The notes beneath the pieces were generated by a model that was not told the DNA's origin, ran no database searches, and saw only the letters and a list, made by a program, of their open reading frames with translations. This document shows positions 15,426 to 23,464 of a DNA stretch of 64,000 nt, piece by piece. The position numbers and the translations under genes are program-made. Numbering within the stretch: position 1 is the first letter of the stretch; each line of letters opens with the position of its first letter. The stretch is from the NCBI RefSeq assembly GCF_009797025.1, contig NZ_CP047027.1, positions 1,302,001 through 1,366,000 of the forward strand. The letters run 5' to 3'. This stretch comes from Cellulophaga sp. L1A9. GTDB lineage: Bacteria > Bacteroidota > Bacteroidia > Flavobacteriales > Flavobacteriaceae.

Positions 15426-16493
15426 TTATGCTTTTGCCTGTTCTACTTTTGGAGCTACTTTTTCCAGTGTAAATGAAAATTCTGATCCAACACCTAAGAC
15501 ACTTTCTACATAAATACGTTCATTATGCGCTTCGATAATGTGCTTTACAATAGATAAACCCAATCCTGAACCACCTTCTTCTCTACTTCCACTTTTATCA
15601 ACACGATAAAAACGTTCAAAAAGTCGCGGGATGTTTTGTTTTGATATTCCTTCGCCATTATCTGTTACACGAACAATGACCTTATTTTTAATAAGATTTT
15701 CAACGCTCACCTCTGTGGTTCCGTTTTCATGACCGTATTTAATGGAGTTTACCAATAAGTTTGTTACTACTTGCTGAATTTTTTCCCTATCCGCATTTAC
15801 TAAAATTGGTGTTTTGTACTTCATATCGAACGTGAGAGAGATATGCTTCTTTGCTGCTTTCATTTCTAAAAGATCAAACACATTCTGAATTAACTCTACA
15901 ATATTAAACTCACTTAGCTCTACATTGAGATCACCCACTTCTAATTTGGTAATTAAATCTAAATCTTTAACGATATAAATTAACCGGTCTACCCCTTTAC
16001 TTGCACGTTGTAAATATTTTTTTCGCAGCGCTTTATCGTCTGCAGCGCCATCTAGCAAGGTAAGTATATAGCCTTGCACAGTAAATAAAGGTGTTTTTAA
16101 TTCATGAGAAACATTCCCTATAAAATCACGGCGGTATTCTTCCCGAATTTTAAGGGTATCTATTTCTATTTTTTTGTCTTTAGCAAATTTTTCAATTTCA
16201 GAAGTTAGCGTACCCATATCTGTAGTTACGGTACGCGAAGCCAAGCTAGAAGATTCTAATAATGAGACATCATCATAGATTCTTTTTATCCGCTTGTATA
16301 TAAATTTTTCTACTCGAAGTTGAATTACAAAAAAACAAATAGTATATGTAACCAGCATAAACACAATTAGAAGCAACCAATCTAATTCACCCTTTAACCA
16401 CAAAAAAGCGGATAAGAATAGTGTTATTGCTACGGTAATATAAGTTGCTGAGCGAAATGCAAATTTGTATGATTTTTTAAAGGATATTGCCAT
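15426..16493 (-). CDS. phoR: PhoR-type sensor histidine kinase
   Basis: The 355-residue kinase has two transmembrane helices in residues 13-58 with almost no periplasmic loop, a linker, the phospho-acceptor His130 in 'NVSHELKTPLFTVQGYI', N-box 'NSIKYG', G1 'DNGEGIS' and G2 'GSGLGLSIVKHI'. A very short sensor region is typical of PhoR, which senses phosphate through the Pst/PhoU complex. The ATG overlaps the stop of the response regulator gene. The phosphate role is inferred from this architecture and from PHO-box-like repeats in front of the regulator's divergent neighbour. No pst or phoU gene is in the window. Confidence 0.8.
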   Translation of the reverse strand: MAISFKKSYKFAFRSATYITVAITLFLSAFLWLKGELDWLLLIVFMLVTYTICFFVIQLRVEKFIYKRIKRIYDDVSLLESSSLASRTVTTDMGTLTSEIEKFAKDKKIEIDTLKIREEYRRDFIGNVSHELKTPLFTVQGYILTLLDGAADDKALRKKYLQRASKGVDRLIYIVKDLDLITKLEVGDLNVELSEFNIVELIQNVFDLLEMKAAKKHISLTFDMKYKTPILVNADREKIQQVVTNLLVNSIKYGHENGTTEVSVENLIKNKVIVRVTDNGEGISKQNIPRLFERFYRVDKSGSREEGGSGLGLSIVKHIIEAHNERIYVESVLGVGSEFSFTLEKVAPKVEQAKA

Positions 16494-17179
16494 TATAACA
16501 CAAACTTATACCCTACTCCTTTTACGGTTTTAAAGTGATCATCTCCAATTTTTTCACGAAGTTTTCTAATATGAACATCAATAGTTCTACCACCAACAAC
16601 AACTTCATTACCCCAAACTTTATCTAAGATAACTTCTCTTTTAAATACTTTATTAGGCTTGGAAGTAAGCAAGGACAACAATTCAAATTCTTTTCTTGGC
16701 AGAACAAGCTCTTGACCGTCATTGACAATCTTATATTCTTCCCGATTAATGATGATGTTACCCACTTTTACAATATCATCAGCCGAAGCTTCTTCATCTT
16801 TTAAGCGTCTTAACAAAGCTTTTACCTTACTCACAAATACTTTTGGCTTTATAGGTTTGGTAATATAGTCATCTGCACCAGCATCAAAACCAGCAACTTG
16901 AGAATAATCTTCACTACGTGCCGTTAAAAAAGTAATAATAGTCTCTTCTAAACCTGGCGTATTTCTAATAATTTCACAAGCTTCTATACCATCCATTTCT
17001 GGCATCATGACATCTAGTATGATCAAATGTGGCTGTTTCTTTTTTGCCTTAGCTACTCCTTCCGCTCCATTTTTAGCCGTAAATACTTCATAGCCTTCTG
17101 CGCTTAAGTTGTAACTTAAAATCTCAAGAATATCTGGTTCATCATCTACCAATAATATTCTAATGTCCTTCTTTTTCAT
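16493..17179 (-). CDS. phoB: PhoB-type response regulator
   Basis: The 228-residue OmpR/PhoB-family regulator has a receiver domain with phospho-acceptor Asp56 in 'IILDVMMPEMDG' and the conserved Lys in 'DDYITKPIKP', followed by a winged-helix domain ending 'DVHIRKLREKIG' and 'KTVKGVGYKF'. It is co-transcribed with the kinase and points away from the TonB-receptor gene across a 267-base spacer that holds TTAACA-type direct repeats. That layout suggests control of the divergent locus. Assignment to PhoB rather than another OmpR-type regulator is likely but not proven. Confidence 0.82.
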   Translation of the reverse strand: MKKKDIRILLVDDEPDILEILSYNLSAEGYEVFTAKNGAEGVAKAKKKQPHLIILDVMMPEMDGIEACEIIRNTPGLEETIITFLTARSEDYSQVAGFDAGADDYITKPIKPKVFVSKVKALLRRLKDEEASADDIVKVGNIIINREEYKIVNDGQELVLPRKEFELLSLLTSKPNKVFKREVILDKVWGNEVVVGGRTIDVHIRKLREKIGDDHFKTVKGVGYKFVL

Positions 17180-17326
17180 TTGATACTTGAATTAAATTCG
17201 GGAACTTTCTATGGCATAAATCACATTCTTGTCGCTGTATATCAACAACTTGCAATCATTACCCCTAAAGTTTCTTAGTTGGTTAATCGCTCAAAAGTAA
17301 AGATAATACAATTACGACTAAAGCAC

Positions 17327-17395
17327 TTAACATTGATTTAATATCATAACATTAAGTTAACACTTAAAAAATAAATCTTTAACACAGGGGTAACA
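17327..17395 (+). promoter_or_regulatory. PHO-box-like array of TTAACA half-sites
   Basis: Six half-sites lie on one strand: TTAACA 17327, TTAATA 17338, ATAACA 17346, TTAACA 17357, TTAACA 17379 and GTAACA 17390. Within each of three pairs the starts are exactly 11 bp apart (6-base site plus 5-base spacer), and pairs two and three are 22 bp apart, so they sit on one helical face. This is the layout of PhoB/PhoP boxes; TTAACA with 5-bp spacing is the B. subtilis PhoP consensus. The last pair ends about 20 bases before a -7-like element, fitting activation of the TonB receptor gene. Confidence 0.65.
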
Positions 17396-17415
17396 TCACT
17401 TTTACCCTGCCGAAC

Positions 17416-17423
17416 GTTCTTTG
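17416..17423 (+). promoter_or_regulatory. Possible -7 element of the TonB receptor gene
   Basis: GTTCTTTG retains the TTTG half of the TAnnTTTG consensus but lacks TA, which would suit a promoter needing an activator. It lies 23 bases before the ATG and about 20 bases after the last TTAACA-type half-site. Confidence 0.35.
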
Positions 17424-17446
17424 CCGCGTAAAAAGACAAAAACAAA

Positions 17447-20341
17447 ATGAAGTATCTATTAGTATCACTATTTTTAATAGTATCAACTTTATCGTACGCA
17501 CAGGACAAAGGTAGTGTTGTTGGTAAAGTAATTGACAAAGAAGCAAGTGACGAACCCTTGGCATTTGCTAACGTGTTAATAAAAGGGACAACAAAAGGTA
17601 CCACTACAGATTTTGATGGATTATACGAAATTGCAAATGTTGATCCAGGCACCTATATAGTTGTATTTAGTTATTTAGGCTATGAATCTGTTGAAGTACC
17701 GAATGTTGCTATAGAAGCAGGAAAAGTAACTACGATAAATATTCCCTTGGCTGCGAGTGAAGGAATGTCTTTAGATGAAGTTGTAGTAACTACAACTGCC
17801 AGAAAAGATTCTGAAGCAGCTTTATTATTAGATCAAAAGAAATCTGTTGATATTACGGTTGCTATTGGAGCTCAAGAGTTAGGGAAAATTGGTGTTACTG
17901 ATGCAGCCACTGCTACCACTAAAATTTCAGGTGTTACCAGCAGTCAGGCCTCAGGAGATATTTTTGTAAGAGGTTTAGGTGATCGTTATCTAAGCACTAC
18001 TCTTAATGGCTTACAAGTTCCATCTGATAATGTAGACCGTAAAAATATCGCTTTAGAACTTTTCCCGACTAGTGTTCTTCAAAACGTTAGCGTAAGAAAA
18101 ACTTTCTCTGTACAAAATACTGCCGATCAATCTTCGGGTACAGTTAATATTGCATCAAGGGAATTATCTGGAAGCTCTGAGTTTTCTGTAAGTCTATCTG
18201 CAGGGGGTAATACAAATGTACTTAAAAACGGGGTTTACGATAATTTTAAAGTAAGTCCTAATTACAGCAATACAACTTTAGGTATCTACAATGAAAACCC
18301 ATTATTACAAACTCAAATTATTCAACAGTCTTGGAATACTGAGAAGCTAAACAATCCTATCAATTATTCTGCTTCTTTAACCGCAGGGAAAAAGTTTTTT
18401 GAAAATAGACTAGCTATACTTTTAACCGCATCACATTCCAAAACTAACGAATACCAACAAGGCACTTTTAAGCAATTCAGATCTAACTTTATAGAAGACT
18501 CTATTAATGATGCTACAACTTACACTACTAACATTATTAATACAGCTCTTTTAGATGTAGTCTTTTATGCTAATGAGAAAAATAAAATTAAATCAAGCAC
18601 TTTCGTTATAAATAAGTTTAGCGACCAAGTTTTTGAAGCTGGTAGAGATGGTCAAACAGTAATATTTGAAGAAACAGAACCTGCTGAAGGTTTATCTCAA
18701 TTTATAAGAGACCAAAACTCAAAGCAAACACAACTTTTTGTGACGCAGCTTATAGGATCGCACAAAATAGGAGAAATAAACACTATTGAGTGGGCCGGAG
18801 GTTATAACTTCTTAAATGCTGATGAACCGAACAGAATCAGAAATGAAATAAATTTTGATTTTGATGGTACTGAGATTGAATTAGCAAGAAGAGGCGATTT
18901 CCAACAAAGAAAATCTAGTCAAAAAATTAATGATATTGAATACAACGGATATTTAAAAGACATCATAAAAATAATAGACGAAGAGGACAGAAACTTTAAA
19001 ATTGAAATAGGAGCAAATTACAGAAACAAGGAACGTGACTTTAGCTCTGAATTTGTGGGTGTGATTGAAGCATCTGGTAGAACAGTAACTCCTCCTTCTT
19101 TAGATGACCTTGGAAGTATTTTTACCATACCAAATTTTAACGATGGTAATTTAAGATACAGGTTATTGGGCGTTAATGCAAATGGCACTCGTGAAGATAT
19201 TTATACAGGTAATTTAGAATCTTATGCTGGATATGCAGATATTAATGTTGGTTTGAAAAAATGGAACTTTAATGCTGGACTGAGATTCCAAAAAGATGAT
19301 TTGAGTGTAAATTACGATATCGGTAACCTTGGAATCTCTAGATTAGGAACTAGCGAACAAGATTACAATAGAGTATACCCAAGCTTAAATGTTAAGTATA
19401 GCGTAAACGACAACAATGCGTTTAGATTTGCCGCAAGTCAAACTCTAACATTGCCCGAATTTAAAGAAATTGCTCCTTTTCAATACGTATCTCCTACCAA
19501 CCAAATTACTGCTGGTAATCCAGATTTGAGAGCATCTACAAACTTTAATTATGATATTAAATGGGAGAGCTACCCGTCTATAGGTGAATTAATTTCTCTT
19601 GGAGCCTTTTATAAGAAAATTGAAGATCCAATTAATAGATTGAGACAAAGGAGTGCTTCAGGTGTATTCTCTTATTTCAACTCAGGTGAAAAGGCAGAGG
19701 TTTTTGGTTTAGAAGCTGAAACTAAATTCGATTTGATCAAAGCTACCACAAATGATGAAGATGGAAACTTATCTGGTTCTGAATTAAGTTTGGTGTTTAA
19801 TGCAACGCGCATGTGGCACACCCAAGACTTAAAACAAATTATCAATGAAGATGGCACTGTTGGAGAAAGTTTTAGATATAAAAACATTACAGAGACTGAT
19901 TTACAAGGAGCATCAGACTGGATACTAAATTCAAGTATAAACTTTAATACTGCTGGCAAAAACCCTCTTGCTGCATCACTTACAGCCAACTATGCATCAG
20001 ATAAAATTTATGCAATTGGTGTCGCAAACACGCTTACAAGTAGCGATTTTGATTACGACGATGCTATTATTGAAAAAGGCTTCGTAACACTTGATGCTGT
20101 GGTTAGTAAAGAAATAAATGAGCACTGGAAAGTTAAACTGGTAGGAAGAAACTTATTAAACCCAAACATCAAGCAAACTCAAAATATTTTAACTAACGTA
20201 AGAGATTTTAGTCAATTAAGTAGTTCTACTACACTAGAAGAGCGCCAAGCAATGAATATTCCATTAATGGAACAGGAAAATACCGTATTGGCATATAAAC
20301 TTGGAATTAATTTAAGCATAGGCGTAAGCTTTCAATTTTAA
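17447..20341 (+). CDS. TonB-dependent outer-membrane receptor
   Basis: The 964-residue receptor has a signal peptide (1-19, 'VSTLSYAQ'), a carboxypeptidase-like regulatory domain (about 24-108, 'GSVVGKVIDKEASDEPLAFA'), a plug domain (about 125-235, with 'DIFVRGLGDRYLSTTLNG') and a 22-strand-type barrel to a terminal Phe. It imports a ligand too large for porins using TonB energy. No SusD-like partner is present; instead a beta-helix-like lipoprotein follows after 39 bases. The upstream TTAACA array and the divergent PhoB-type regulator suggest induction by phosphate starvation and a phosphorus-containing ligand. The ligand is inference. Confidence 0.92.
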   Translation: MKYLLVSLFLIVSTLSYAQDKGSVVGKVIDKEASDEPLAFANVLIKGTTKGTTTDFDGLYEIANVDPGTYIVVFSYLGYESVEVPNVAIEAGKVTTINIPLAASEGMSLDEVVVTTTARKDSEAALLLDQKKSVDITVAIGAQELGKIGVTDAATATTKISGVTSSQASGDIFVRGLGDRYLSTTLNGLQVPSDNVDRKNIALELFPTSVLQNVSVRKTFSVQNTADQSSGTVNIASRELSGSSEFSVSLSAGGNTNVLKNGVYDNFKVSPNYSNTTLGIYNENPLLQTQIIQQSWNTEKLNNPINYSASLTAGKKFFENRLAILLTASHSKTNEYQQGTFKQFRSNFIEDSINDATTYTTNIINTALLDVVFYANEKNKIKSSTFVINKFSDQVFEAGRDGQTVIFEETEPAEGLSQFIRDQNSKQTQLFVTQLIGSHKIGEINTIEWAGGYNFLNADEPNRIRNEINFDFDGTEIELARRGDFQQRKSSQKINDIEYNGYLKDIIKIIDEEDRNFKIEIGANYRNKERDFSSEFVGVIEASGRTVTPPSLDDLGSIFTIPNFNDGNLRYRLLGVNANGTREDIYTGNLESYAGYADINVGLKKWNFNAGLRFQKDDLSVNYDIGNLGISRLGTSEQDYNRVYPSLNVKYSVNDNNAFRFAASQTLTLPEFKEIAPFQYVSPTNQITAGNPDLRASTNFNYDIKWESYPSIGELISLGAFYKKIEDPINRLRQRSASGVFSYFNSGEKAEVFGLEAETKFDLIKATTNDEDGNLSGSELSLVFNATRMWHTQDLKQIINEDGTVGESFRYKNITETDLQGASDWILNSSINFNTAGKNPLAASLTANYASDKIYAIGVANTLTSSDFDYDDAIIEKGFVTLDAVVSKEINEHWKVKLVGRNLLNPNIKQTQNILTNVRDFSQLSSSTTLEERQAMNIPLMEQENTVLAYKLGINLSIGVSFQF

Positions 20342-20380: not shown

Positions 20381-22402
20381 ATGAAAACGAACTTTTTAAA
20401 ATTGTCTTTTATCTGTTCAGCAGTTTTTGCTTTAGCATTAACTAGCTGCAGCAACGATGACGATGTGTCTAATCCTGCTGATTTATGTAGCAATGGTATT
20501 TTAGATGCCGGTGAAGAAGGTGTTGATTGTGGTGGTACATGTTCAAACTCATGTCCTGATGCCGCAACAAATTTAACAGGAGAACTTACTGAAGACAGAA
20601 CTTTAGACCCGAGTTTAGATTATGTATTAACGAATAGCTTTAGCGTTGCTTCAGGTGTTACTTTAACCATACCTGCTGGAACTAAAATTACAGCAAACGT
20701 ACAAACTGGTACCGAAACTAATACTTACATCGTAGTTCAAAAAGGTGGTAAGATTGATGTTCAGGGTACAGAAGCTAATCCAGTTATCATGACATCTACT
20801 AATGCTACACCTGGTGATTGGGGTGGTTTAGTAATCTTAGGAGATGCTACAACTACAAAAGGTGTTGATGCTACTGCCGAAGTAGGAGACTTTAAATATG
20901 GTGGAACTAACGATACTGATAATTCAGGATCTATCCAGTACTTAATCATTAACTACGCTGGCGCCTCTATTAATGCTGATTCTCAATACAATGGCCTTAC
21001 ACTTTATGCTGTTGGTTCTGGAACAACTGTAGAGAATGTAGCCATGTTAAATGGTACTGATGATGGAGTTGAATTCTTCGGAGGAACTGTTTCTGCGACT
21101 AATATGTATATGGAAAACAACGAAGACGATTCAATCGATTGGACTGAGGGATGGAACGGTACTTTGACTAATGGTTATATTGTTCACACTATAGAAGATT
21201 TTTCTACAGTTATGGAAGGTGATGGTGATAATAATAATCCTAAATTTGTGAACATCACAGCTATTTCTACAGTAGGTGGTACTGCACTTCAGTTTAAAAA
21301 AGAATCTGGAGGAACAATTACTGGCTTATCATTATCTGGTTACGATACATCTTTAGATTTCCCTCAAGATGGTTCATTATCCAATGTTCAAATTGATGGA
21401 GCAGATGCAAATCCTTCTTTAACTTATATCGCTTCTCCAACAGTAGACGTTGCTTTATTCGCATGGGTTAACTCTTCTATTGCTATTGAAAATAGTGTGT
21501 TAAGTGGAACAGTATCAAGCGATATGACATTAGATGCTAATGTTCCTTATTTCTTAGAAAATGCTTTAAGCGTAGAATCAGGAGTAACATTAACAATTCC
21601 GGCCGGAACTATGATTACAGCTAAGGTTGAAGCTGGTACTGAAACAAATACTTATATTGTAGTTCAAAAAGGCGGTAAGATTGATATTCAAGGTACAGAA
21701 GCTAATCCAGTCGTTATGACTTCCGCAAATCAAACGCCTGGCGATTGGGGTGGTTTAGTTATTCTTGGTGACGCGACTACTACAAAAGGTGTTGATGCTA
21801 CTGCTGAAGTAGGTGATTTTAAATATGGTGGTTCAAACGATGCCGATGATTCAGGATCTATAAGCTACCTAGTCATTAATTATGCAGGTGCTTCTATCAA
21901 TGCTGATTCTCAATACAATGGTCTTACGTTATATGCTGTTGGTTCTGGAACTACAATTGCAAACGTTGCAATGTTAAACGGTACAGATGATGGCGTTGAG
22001 TTTTTCGGAGGAACTGTTTCTGCCACTAATATGTATATGGAAAACAATGAAGATGATGCTATTGACTGGACAGAAGGTTGGAATGGTACTTTAACCAATG
22101 GTTACATTTCTCATACTATAGAAGGTTTTTCAACTGTAATGGAAGGTGATGGAGACAATAACAATCCTAAGTTTGTAAATATCACGGCTGTTTCTACTGT
22201 AGGCGGAACTGCCCTTCAATTTAAAAAAGAATCTGGAGGAATCATTACTGGTCTTTCATTGATTGGTTATACAACTATATTAGATTTCCCTCAAGGTGGT
22301 GCATTTGCAAATGTTCAAATTGAAGGTGCTGATGCTGATCCTAGTCTATCATATGATGACGCTGCTACTGTAGATGTTGCTACATTTGCTTGGGCTAAAT
22401 AA
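20381..22402 (+). CDS. Internally duplicated surface lipoprotein
   Basis: The 673-residue product has lipobox 'LTSC' (Cys23), a Cys-rich linker with 'GEEGVDCGGTC' (about 42-60), then two near-identical halves at about 66-364 and 375-673. Each half contains 'GVTLTIPAG', 'GDWGGLVILGDATTTKGVD', 'NGTDDGVEFFGGTVSATN' and 'MEGDGDNNNPKFVNI' and looks like a short-rung right-handed beta-helix. At DNA level the copies are offset by exactly 927 bases (309 codons) and differ mostly at silent positions. It follows the TonB receptor closely and is probably its surface binding partner, analogous in position to SusD though unrelated. Many Asp/Asn residues suggest metal binding. Confidence 0.85.
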   Translation: MKTNFLKLSFICSAVFALALTSCSNDDDVSNPADLCSNGILDAGEEGVDCGGTCSNSCPDAATNLTGELTEDRTLDPSLDYVLTNSFSVASGVTLTIPAGTKITANVQTGTETNTYIVVQKGGKIDVQGTEANPVIMTSTNATPGDWGGLVILGDATTTKGVDATAEVGDFKYGGTNDTDNSGSIQYLIINYAGASINADSQYNGLTLYAVGSGTTVENVAMLNGTDDGVEFFGGTVSATNMYMENNEDDSIDWTEGWNGTLTNGYIVHTIEDFSTVMEGDGDNNNPKFVNITAISTVGGTALQFKKESGGTITGLSLSGYDTSLDFPQDGSLSNVQIDGADANPSLTYIASPTVDVALFAWVNSSIAIENSVLSGTVSSDMTLDANVPYFLENALSVESGVTLTIPAGTMITAKVEAGTETNTYIVVQKGGKIDIQGTEANPVVMTSANQTPGDWGGLVILGDATTTKGVDATAEVGDFKYGGSNDADDSGSISYLVINYAGASINADSQYNGLTLYAVGSGTTIANVAMLNGTDDGVEFFGGTVSATNMYMENNEDDAIDWTEGWNGTLTNGYISHTIEGFSTVMEGDGDNNNPKFVNITAVSTVGGTALQFKKESGGIITGLSLIGYTTILDFPQGGAFANVQIEGADADPSLSYDDAATVDVATFAWAK

Positions 22403-22426
22403 GACTAAACAATTAAATATACACCT

Positions 22427-22454
22427 AAAAGCCTCGCAATCGCGGGGCTTTTTT
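22427..22454 (+). terminator. Terminator of the TonB receptor operon
   Basis: AAAAGCCTCGC (22427-22437) pairs with GCGGGGCTTTT (22442-22452) with one G-T wobble, followed by more T. It starts about 25 bases after the lipoprotein stop. Confidence 0.88.
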
Positions 22455-22614
22455 ACATCTTATATTCTACAAAATCCGATCAAACAACATTATAACAGAC
22501 AAATAGTGAGTATTTAGTGCTTTTTATCGAAAATATTTGATTAAAATTTAACATTATATTTCTGTACTATTAATTTTAGTATCTTCGTGGTATACTATTT
22601 GTTATTAGTAACAT

Positions 22615-22923
22615 ATGAAAAAACTTTACTTTATCATTCTTTTCTGTATTGCAACTCTTGGCTATAGTCAGGACAAGCCTACTACAGGTGATATTGAAGG
22701 GTTTAAATTGTACCCTAACCCTGTTACTAGCGGAAAAGTCTTCATCAATACCGCTTTAAATGCCCCAAAAAAAGTTTTAATTTTTGATGTTTTAGGGAAT
22801 AAAGTAATGGAAGCCACTATTATCGGCACAGAGTTGAATCTTTCGGATATTGATGCTGGAATTTATGTAATTCGTGTCTACGAAAAAGATAAAATGGTAA
22901 CCCGAAAACTTATCGTCAAATAG
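22615..22923 (+). CDS. Cargo-less T9SS type A sorting-domain protein
   Basis: The 102-residue protein is a signal peptide (1-18, 'CIATLGYSQ') followed almost directly by a T9SS type A C-terminal sorting domain: 'GFKLYPNPVTSGKVFIN', 'VLIFDVLGNKVME', 'LSDIDAGIYVIRV' and terminal 'TRKLIVK'. Normally this domain guides a large cargo through the outer membrane and is cut off; here no cargo domain remains. It might be a minimal secreted peptide, a regulator or decoy of the sorting machinery, or the remnant of a larger gene. A near -7 box (TATCTTCG) lies about 30 bases upstream. A similar gene follows after 220 bases. Confidence 0.88.
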   Translation: MKKLYFIILFCIATLGYSQDKPTTGDIEGFKLYPNPVTSGKVFINTALNAPKKVLIFDVLGNKVMEATIIGTELNLSDIDAGIYVIRVYEKDKMVTRKLIVK

Positions 22924-23143: not shown

Positions 23144-23464
23144 ATGACAAAAATCTACTTTATCCTACTTATGGTTTTCACATTCTCTCTTTCAGGACAA
23201 GAGCCCGTCGAAAACCATACGAAAAATACCGAAATTGCTGGCTTTAAATTGTATCCTAACCCTACTTTCAATGATGTGGTTTACATCACCACAAAAGACA
23301 ACCTAGGTAAGAACATTCAAGTATATGATTTATTAGGAGAATTGGTGCTGCAAGAATACAGCCACTATAAAGAATTAAACATTTCTAAACTAGATGCTGG
23401 TGTTTACATTGTTCAGGTTACAGAAAATAACAAAACAACTTCAAGAAAGTTAGTCGTGAAATAA
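23144..23464 (+). CDS. Cargo-less T9SS type A sorting-domain protein (second copy)
   Basis: The 106-residue protein has the same plan as the gene before it: a signal peptide (1-18, 'FTFSLSGQ'), a spacer of about a dozen residues and a complete sorting domain with 'AGFKLYPNPTFNDVVYI', 'IQVYDLLGELVLQ', 'ISKLDAGVYIVQVTE' and terminal 'SRKLVVK'. The two copies share the motif framework but differ in many residues, so they are paralogues rather than a recent duplication. It has its own promoter region and a strong terminator. The function is unknown; the sorting domain assignment is firm. Confidence 0.88.
   Translation: MTKIYFILLMVFTFSLSGQEPVENHTKNTEIAGFKLYPNPTFNDVVYITTKDNLGKNIQVYDLLGELVLQEYSHYKELNISKLDAGVYIVQVTENNKTTSRKLVVK

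Follow-up and report, generated by a model that had tools for sequence, protein, structure and literature searches.

A conserved array of 11-bp direct repeats between phoB and a TonB-dependent receptor operon shares its geometry with flavobacterial phosphate-uptake promoters

Between a phoBR-like gene pair and a divergent TonB-dependent receptor gene, a 64-kb stretch of DNA from Cellulophaga sp. L1A9 (the window, part of a host genome that is a single contig of 5.07 Mb) carries an array of TTAACA-type direct repeats spaced by 11 bp. Closer analysis confirmed the array and its strong conservation; it has the same geometry as promoters of known phosphate genes, and its distal pairs recur at standalone phoB promoters. 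We consider it probable, at roughly 86%, that this is a flavobacterial PHO-box array from which phosphorylated PhoB activates the receptor and lipoprotein genes under phosphate starvation, the two products acting as one outer-membrane uptake unit. This interpretation is supported because strong comparative evidence is joined by the published expression of an equivalent locus.

The locus and its genes

phoB and the receptor gene are separated by 267 bp, and the array lies within this interval. The features of the locus are as follows.

15426..16493, minus strand: phoR-like sensor histidine kinase, 355 aa (Pfam: HisKA and HATPase only)
16493..17179, minus strand: phoB-like OmpR-family response regulator, 228 aa (Pfam, NCBIfam)
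17297..17305, minus strand: -7 element of the phoB promoter, TATCTTTAC on that strand (by comparison with standalone phoB loci)
17327..17362, plus strand: distal module, half-sites 17327, 17338, 17346 and 17357, forming two 11-bp pairs 19 bp apart
17379..17406, plus strand: proximal module, tandem 11-bp triplet 17379, 17390 and 17401 (the same triplet is present at pst, PHO4 and Na/Pi promoters)
17416..17424, plus strand: weak -7 element GTTCTTTGC of the receptor promoter, with TTTGC at 17420-17424
17447..20341, plus strand: TonB-dependent receptor, 964 aa, with CarboxypepD-like N-terminal domain, plug and barrel (PF13715, PF07715, PF00593, PF14905)
20381..22402, plus strand: lipoprotein, 673 aa, a tandemly duplicated module (duplication visible in the sequence)

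The window receptor is 98% identical to one of Cellulophaga baltica DSM 24729. Pfam detected no sensory domain in the PhoR-like kinase, and NCBIfam PhoR models matched it well under their cut-offs. The regulator fell short of two NCBIfam PhoB equivalogs, TIGR02154 (212.5 bits; cut-off 296.2) and NF053854 (210.3 bits; cut-off 270), although these were its top-ranked NCBIfam models. The lipoprotein had zero Pfam matches, PF28492 being precomputed for its relatives; with no such match, a SusD-family partner (as in a SusCD-like complex) was not found, and a sequence search of solved structures identified no relative for it (single match at E 0.63). Among the best 120 of its 6221 homologs, lengths fell into classes near 400, 650-720 and 840-1015 aa which, judged by length, suggest proteins of about one, two or three modules.

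Layout of the array

The earlier note, made from the sequence alone, had listed six TTAACA-type half-sites in three pairs with exact 11-bp spacing. All six were confirmed on the plus strand at the positions listed, as was the spacing within pairs: exact TTAACA stands at three of them (17327, 17357 and 17379), the others being TTAATA (17338), ATAACA (17346) and GTAACA (17390). The count was incomplete, however. A seventh half-site that had been missed, TTTACC (TTTACA in the consensus of relatives), lies at 17401, and since it follows 17390 by 11 bp, the last pair becomes a tandem triplet, 17379/17390/17401. The steps between pairs are unequal, 8 bp from 17338 to 17346 and 22 bp from 17357 to 17379, so that the array does not keep a single unbroken register. 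The poor -7 box that had been described downstream is indeed there: a weak GTTCTTTG begins at 17416, 20 bases after the last site then listed (17390). Across 32 sequences its TTTG is invariant and the next C nearly invariant, and the last core of the triplet starts 18 bases ahead of TTTG.

The E. coli PHO box and the B. subtilis PhoP boxes are 11-bp direct repeats that bind an OmpR-family regulator and replace the -35 element. The window likewise has direct repeats at 11 bp upstream of a promoter, as a PHO box should. The E. coli half-site is CTGTCAT, whereas the window has a TTAACA-type triplet joined to a -7 box, which we take to be of the Bacteroidota type.

Three NTAAYA pairs at 11 bp were found in 0 of 20,000 dinucleotide shuffles of the 267-bp region and two pairs in 5 of 20,000, in a test framed post hoc with the array already seen. 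Elsewhere in the window, one further NTAAYA pair at 11 bp was found, on the minus strand. A chance cluster in AT-rich intergenic DNA would agree with the observation that TTAACA doublets by themselves are not enriched: genome-wide, TTAACA-N5-TTAACA with at most one mismatch gave 89 matches against 118 for the reversed pattern, so the doublet alone says little. None of the genes behind exact TTAACA doublets was recognisable as a phosphate gene when translations were judged by eye, and the triplet without its -7 element was uninformative in this genome (9 matches, against 4 for the reversed control). Both the shuffles and the relatives speak against chance; in the latter the cores are fixed in spacing while the spacers have diverged, a conservation that refutes this reading, which we regard as barely conceivable.

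Conservation of the array in receptor relatives

A receptor search covered 397 genomes of the family, 221 of which had a match at E 1e-100. Loci were taken from the best 30 rows, the window's own included, and the addition of four named genomes brought them to 33, or 31 after removing two duplicates (L020, with the array of L026, and L022, with that of L046). These 31 relatives are the closest receptors and hence not independent. They were aligned by an ungapped anchor at exact spacing, and a site was scored by its core, T[AT]A[CT] (T[AT]AC for site 7).

The core was kept at sites 1-7 in 27, 25, 31, 28, 26, 29 and 27 of the 31 closest relatives, respectively, for a background of 2.2% per position; the skipped register position, 17368, had a core in 3/31. 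Seven sites were kept in 15 relatives, six in 12, five in one, four in two and three in one. The proximal triplet was full in 20/31, and two of its three sites were present in the remaining 11. Sites 1-2 were missing in L053 and, together with site 5, in L031 and L038. Single losses affected site 2 (L036, L037), site 4 (L052, L054), site 5 (L034, L040, L046), site 6 (L027, L033) and site 7 (L048, L049, L051). L047 scored only three sites, those further upstream being misplaced by the ungapped anchor; it was excluded from the conservation means and counted, unfavourably, in the per-site and per-relative counts.

Mean information, over 31 rows with the window included and L047 excluded, was 1.72 bits in the cores, 0.67 in the rest of the array and 0.33 in the upstream flank, with a peak at register shift 0. 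Core positions have been kept at fixed spacing, and the spacers have diverged. Loss of the 11-bp spacing in close relatives had been named beforehand as an outcome that would count against phosphate control; the spacing was largely kept, including in 13 of the 31 relatives with phoB elsewhere.

In these 13 relatives phoB was not found adjoining the receptor. All 13 genomes nonetheless carry a 75-89% identical ortholog elsewhere and, with the next-best regulator at no more than 42% identity, there is one clear phoB ortholog per genome. The array persists at their receptors, with three triplet sites in 6/13 and two in 7/13.

A control region common to phoB and the receptor

The standalone phoB loci of the same 13 genomes provided a view of the other promoter. 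A -7 element of the form TAT[ACG][TG]TTA (TATCTTTA-type) lies 37-49 bases ahead of the phoB ATG in 12/13. At least one 11-bp pair, oriented opposite to phoB as in the window, was present at 11/13, and two pairs 19-20 bp apart, in the style of the distal module, at 6/13; pairs on the same strand were found at 1/13. In single-base shuffles of each phoB upstream region, such a pair occurred in 3-12% (one strand scanned). A position-weight model of the distal module, built from phoB-free receptor loci, was also tried: 3/13 standalone phoB loci scored above all their shuffles. The model proved too stringent where phoB promoters have a 20-bp step, and the plain count of 11-bp pairs was therefore used instead.

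In the window, 22 bases separate the phoB -7 element from the start of the distal module, and the end of the proximal triplet lies beside the receptor -7 element. Since distal pairs are also found at 11/13 standalone phoB promoters, the intergenic region is one control region between two promoters, common to phoB and the receptor. Those pairs would also suit an array that serves phoB autoregulation only, next to a constitutive receptor promoter. Retention of the array in the 13/31 relatives without an adjoining phoB (full triplet in six, two sites in seven) argues against this, as does recurrence of the triplet at pst and PHO4 promoters (see below), and we hold such a restricted role to be highly improbable.

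The same geometry at other phosphate operons

A pattern derived solely from the receptor promoter, TAAC-N7-TWAC-N14-TTTGC, was searched in 40 genomes of the genus, family and order. The strict pattern gave 61 matches versus 27 for the reversed pattern. As much as 5 kb downstream of each of the 61 and the 27 matches was screened against a panel of phosphate proteins. This panel was partly built from genes first seen behind matches and is thus not blind; it also served to judge the 27 controls. Phosphate-uptake operons lay directly downstream of 32/61 pattern matches and of 0/27 reversed ones (Fisher one-sided 2e-7, for matches that are not phylogenetically independent). Two neighbouring control matches on one G423 contig had a receptor and phoB 1.4-3.2 kb off, not directly downstream. 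The remaining 29 strict matches are not beside a panel gene, and 18 of them are flagged inside a frame of at least 150 codons. In three same-genus genomes (L169, L171, L174), a conserved intergenic match precedes a 202-aa gene.

Receptor/lipoprotein operons account for 18 of the 32 (G006 counted twice, having two sites), and the other 14 stand at PHO4, pst, Na/Pi or PhoX operons. Nine of these 14 consist of a small CarbopepD protein followed by a PHO4 transporter, one of them in the window's own genome. Two comprise a phosphate-selective porin followed by pst genes, extending through phoU in G007 and, in G003, on a contig ending after pstB; a porin-PHO4 operon, a Na/Pi cotransporter and a PhoX gene make up the rest. 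Pfam was run on 20 neighbouring genes as representatives. A third repeat 11 bp further upstream, outside the pattern, was found at 29/32 phosphate matches versus 7/29 others, and the remaining offsets between 6 and 19 each reached at most 2/32.

A search of related genomes for the array at pst, phoX and other phosphate genes had been proposed beforehand, and it located pst, PHO4, Na/Pi and PhoX operons. PF05787 (PhoX-family) genes, by contrast, do not as a rule carry the array. There are 16 PF05787 loci in 13/40 genomes, and the module with a -7 box was present at 1/16 (in G414), a loose triplet at one more (L098). With 15/16 loci lacking the module with a -7 box, PF05787 genes were discarded as a test set for the array. 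A geometry common to known phosphate genes, the other mark of a PHO box, was therefore found, though at only 1/16 PF05787 loci.

These operons also bear on whether another OmpR-family regulator, answering a different signal, might use the array, the link to phosphate genes then being merely shared ancestry of receptor operons. Half-sites of the family resemble each other, the Riemerella PhoP motif being called highly similar to that of ArcA in the available text of its report (PMC9603813), and receptor/lipoprotein operons do form 18 of the 32 matches. The other 14, however, repeat this geometry at unrelated phosphate genes (pst, PHO4, Na/Pi, PhoX), albeit nine of them as one CarbopepD-PHO4 operon in relatives, and distal pairs track phoB itself where phoB sits elsewhere. 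We therefore judge this alternative unlikely.

In the window's own genome, the strict pattern gave three exact matches, at the receptor, at the PHO4 operon and within a coding frame. A relaxed three-repeat pattern found the same three plus seven places with one mismatch, 10 versus 6 for the control. Given how few relaxed-pattern matches exceed control (9 vs 4; 10 vs 6), the regulon readable here is small, namely the receptor and the PHO4 operon. The PHO4-operon match (G000:C1:2173753-2173786, minus strand) is a second promoter of the same geometry, outside the window; its operon (L177, G000:C1:2168753-2173886) encodes a small CarboxypepD-domain protein and then a 762-aa PHO4-family transporter. 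Neither of the two PF05787 genes of this genome has the module with a -7 box.

PhoU was found in 0/18 same-genus genomes, the window's own included, by a search that was positive in 13/14 control genomes. PstB at E 1e-60 was likewise found in 0/18, with 50 candidates scored per genome, and in 13/14 control genomes. phoBR is present in the window's genome although PhoU and PstB were not found, and their absence from these searches of 18 genomes raises the question of how PhoR senses phosphate there.

Proposed mechanism and comparison with known systems

In the mechanism that we favour, the adjacent phoBR would make phosphorylated PhoB, which would bind head-to-tail on the 11-bp repeats with core TTAACA. 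The occupied proximal triplet (17379-17406) would replace the -33 element and bring RNA polymerase to the poor -7 box starting at 17416, so that receptor and lipoprotein are expressed in phosphate-starved cells. The four distal sites (17327-17362) would be a module common with the divergent phoB promoter, and probably also serve PhoB autoregulation. Receptor and lipoprotein would then take up a phosphorus source as a single outer-membrane unit. We infer binding by the window PhoB, activation, the starvation signal and the substrate; organic or polymeric phosphate, which the earlier note had put forward as a possible substrate, is only a guess. Weighing against this explanation are the incomplete triplets (20/31 complete), the 29/61 strict matches away from panel genes and the PhoB and PhoR scores below NCBIfam cut-offs.

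The closest parallel is the phoBR cluster of F. johnsoniae (PUSIV, Fjoh_0541-0549), described in the main text of its report as containing phoR, phoB, a TonB receptor and a lipoprotein (PMC8115612). Upon Pi depletion, the receptor Fjoh_0545 rose by log2 8.0, the lipoprotein Fjoh_0546 by 9.9 and phoB by 3.1, phoR changing by 0.76, not significant; uncharacterised low-Pi loci were tightly repressed under N and Fe limitation (PMC8115612). Gene order in PUSIV, as deduced from locus tags, is that of the window (phoR-phoB, receptor, lipoprotein), and the three families given for the F. johnsoniae receptor, pf07715, pf13715 and pf14905, are all in the window receptor (PMC8115612). Its lipoprotein, FII (IPR011050), is likened to ours by gene order, and unlike the window the cluster also includes OprP, a glycosyl transferase and Fjoh_0549 (PMC8115612). 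Together with the operon matches (32/61 vs 0/27), the induction of this locus supports the earlier proposal of a putative phosphate-starvation system under the adjacent regulator (PMC8115612). The terms 'pho box', 'promoter' and 'motif' have 0 occurrences in that main text, which gives no promoter motif, whereas the array is defined here.

Our search of the open-licence literature found no published PHO box definition for the phylum; the nearest is the DAP-seq motif of Riemerella anatipestifer PhoP, given in the available text as core TTTAACA from 583 peaks and ArcA-like (PMC9603813). In EMSA, this PhoP bound a TonB-receptor promoter as well as a 35-nt segment (-156 to -121) ahead of its own operon, similar in length to the window distal module (36); the unphosphorylated protein bound about equally in vitro (PMC9603813). 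The available text has no 11-bp array and no -7 geometry, and the regulators are likened here by motif (PMC9603813). Deletion of phoPR in Riemerella is reported to raise pstS 8-fold, opposite to simple activation (PMC5399024). For plcP clusters of marine bacteria, PhoB sites were predicted bioinformatically in a strain set including the flavobacterium Dokdonia sp. MED134; the accessible text gives no motif letters and no statement on the flavobacterial cluster, in contrast to the explicit pattern here (PMC4796936). That pattern, 11-bp TTAACA-type repeats followed by 14 bases and TTTGC, offers a testable signature of flavobacterial phosphate-starvation promoters and would help to place unknown genes in the phosphate regulon.

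For the lipoprotein, the parallel is ElpS of Caulobacter crescentus, a phosphate-starvation surface lipoprotein adjoining the TonB receptor CC0171, their functional interaction having been deduced by its authors from co-occurrence (PMC2996285). FII-type lipoproteins are reported to be homologous to ElpS (PMC8115612). ElpS is released by a T2SS-dependent route, and the Caulobacter receptor is described as constitutive, unlike the receptor proposed here (PMC2996285).

Exchange of the barrel and lipoprotein as a block

Two same-genus genomes, G408 and G401, have mosaic copies of the locus. In G408 (L106), about 90% DNA identity to the window extends from phoB (16481) across the array to receptor codon ~181 (17989); from 17291, G408 (L158) and G401 (L184, to 17877) are 87% identical to it. 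Beyond 17877-17989 only short pieces align, until 22395 in G401 or 22423-22523 in G408, and 84-86% identity returns around the lipoprotein stop at 22402 in both. Relative to the window, the N-terminal domains of G408 and G401 are 96/93% identical, the barrels 32/31% and the lipoproteins 39/42%, with a lipoprotein of 398 aa versus 673 in the window. The breakpoints, near 17877-17989 and 22395-22523, delimit a barrel and lipoprotein replaced as a block in both genomes.

Barrel and lipoprotein also covary. Over 66 pairs from 12 genomes their identities correlated at r 0.95 (rank 0.55, weaker than the linear value), those of N-terminal domain and barrel at r 0.38 (rank 0.20); the thirteenth genome, G203, was excluded, its stretch ending at the contig end with no lipoprotein. 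Judged from these sequence comparisons, barrel and lipoprotein may be one binding unit, with substrate or phage as conceivable drivers of the exchange. We see an even chance that the locus combines a fixed PhoB switch with an exchangeable barrel/lipoprotein specificity cassette, the promoter, signal peptide and N-terminal domain ahead of it being conserved, and that PhoBR in this genus apparently works without a Pst/PhoU sensor complex. If so, joint swapping would make barrel and lipoprotein one co-adapted ligand-binding unit. Their co-exchange suggests partners that do not belong to SusCD.

Downstream of the lipoprotein gene lie genes for two small proteins with T9SS sorting domains, at 22615-22923 and 23144-23464, both on the plus strand; the first lies within the stretch where G408/G401 homology resumes.
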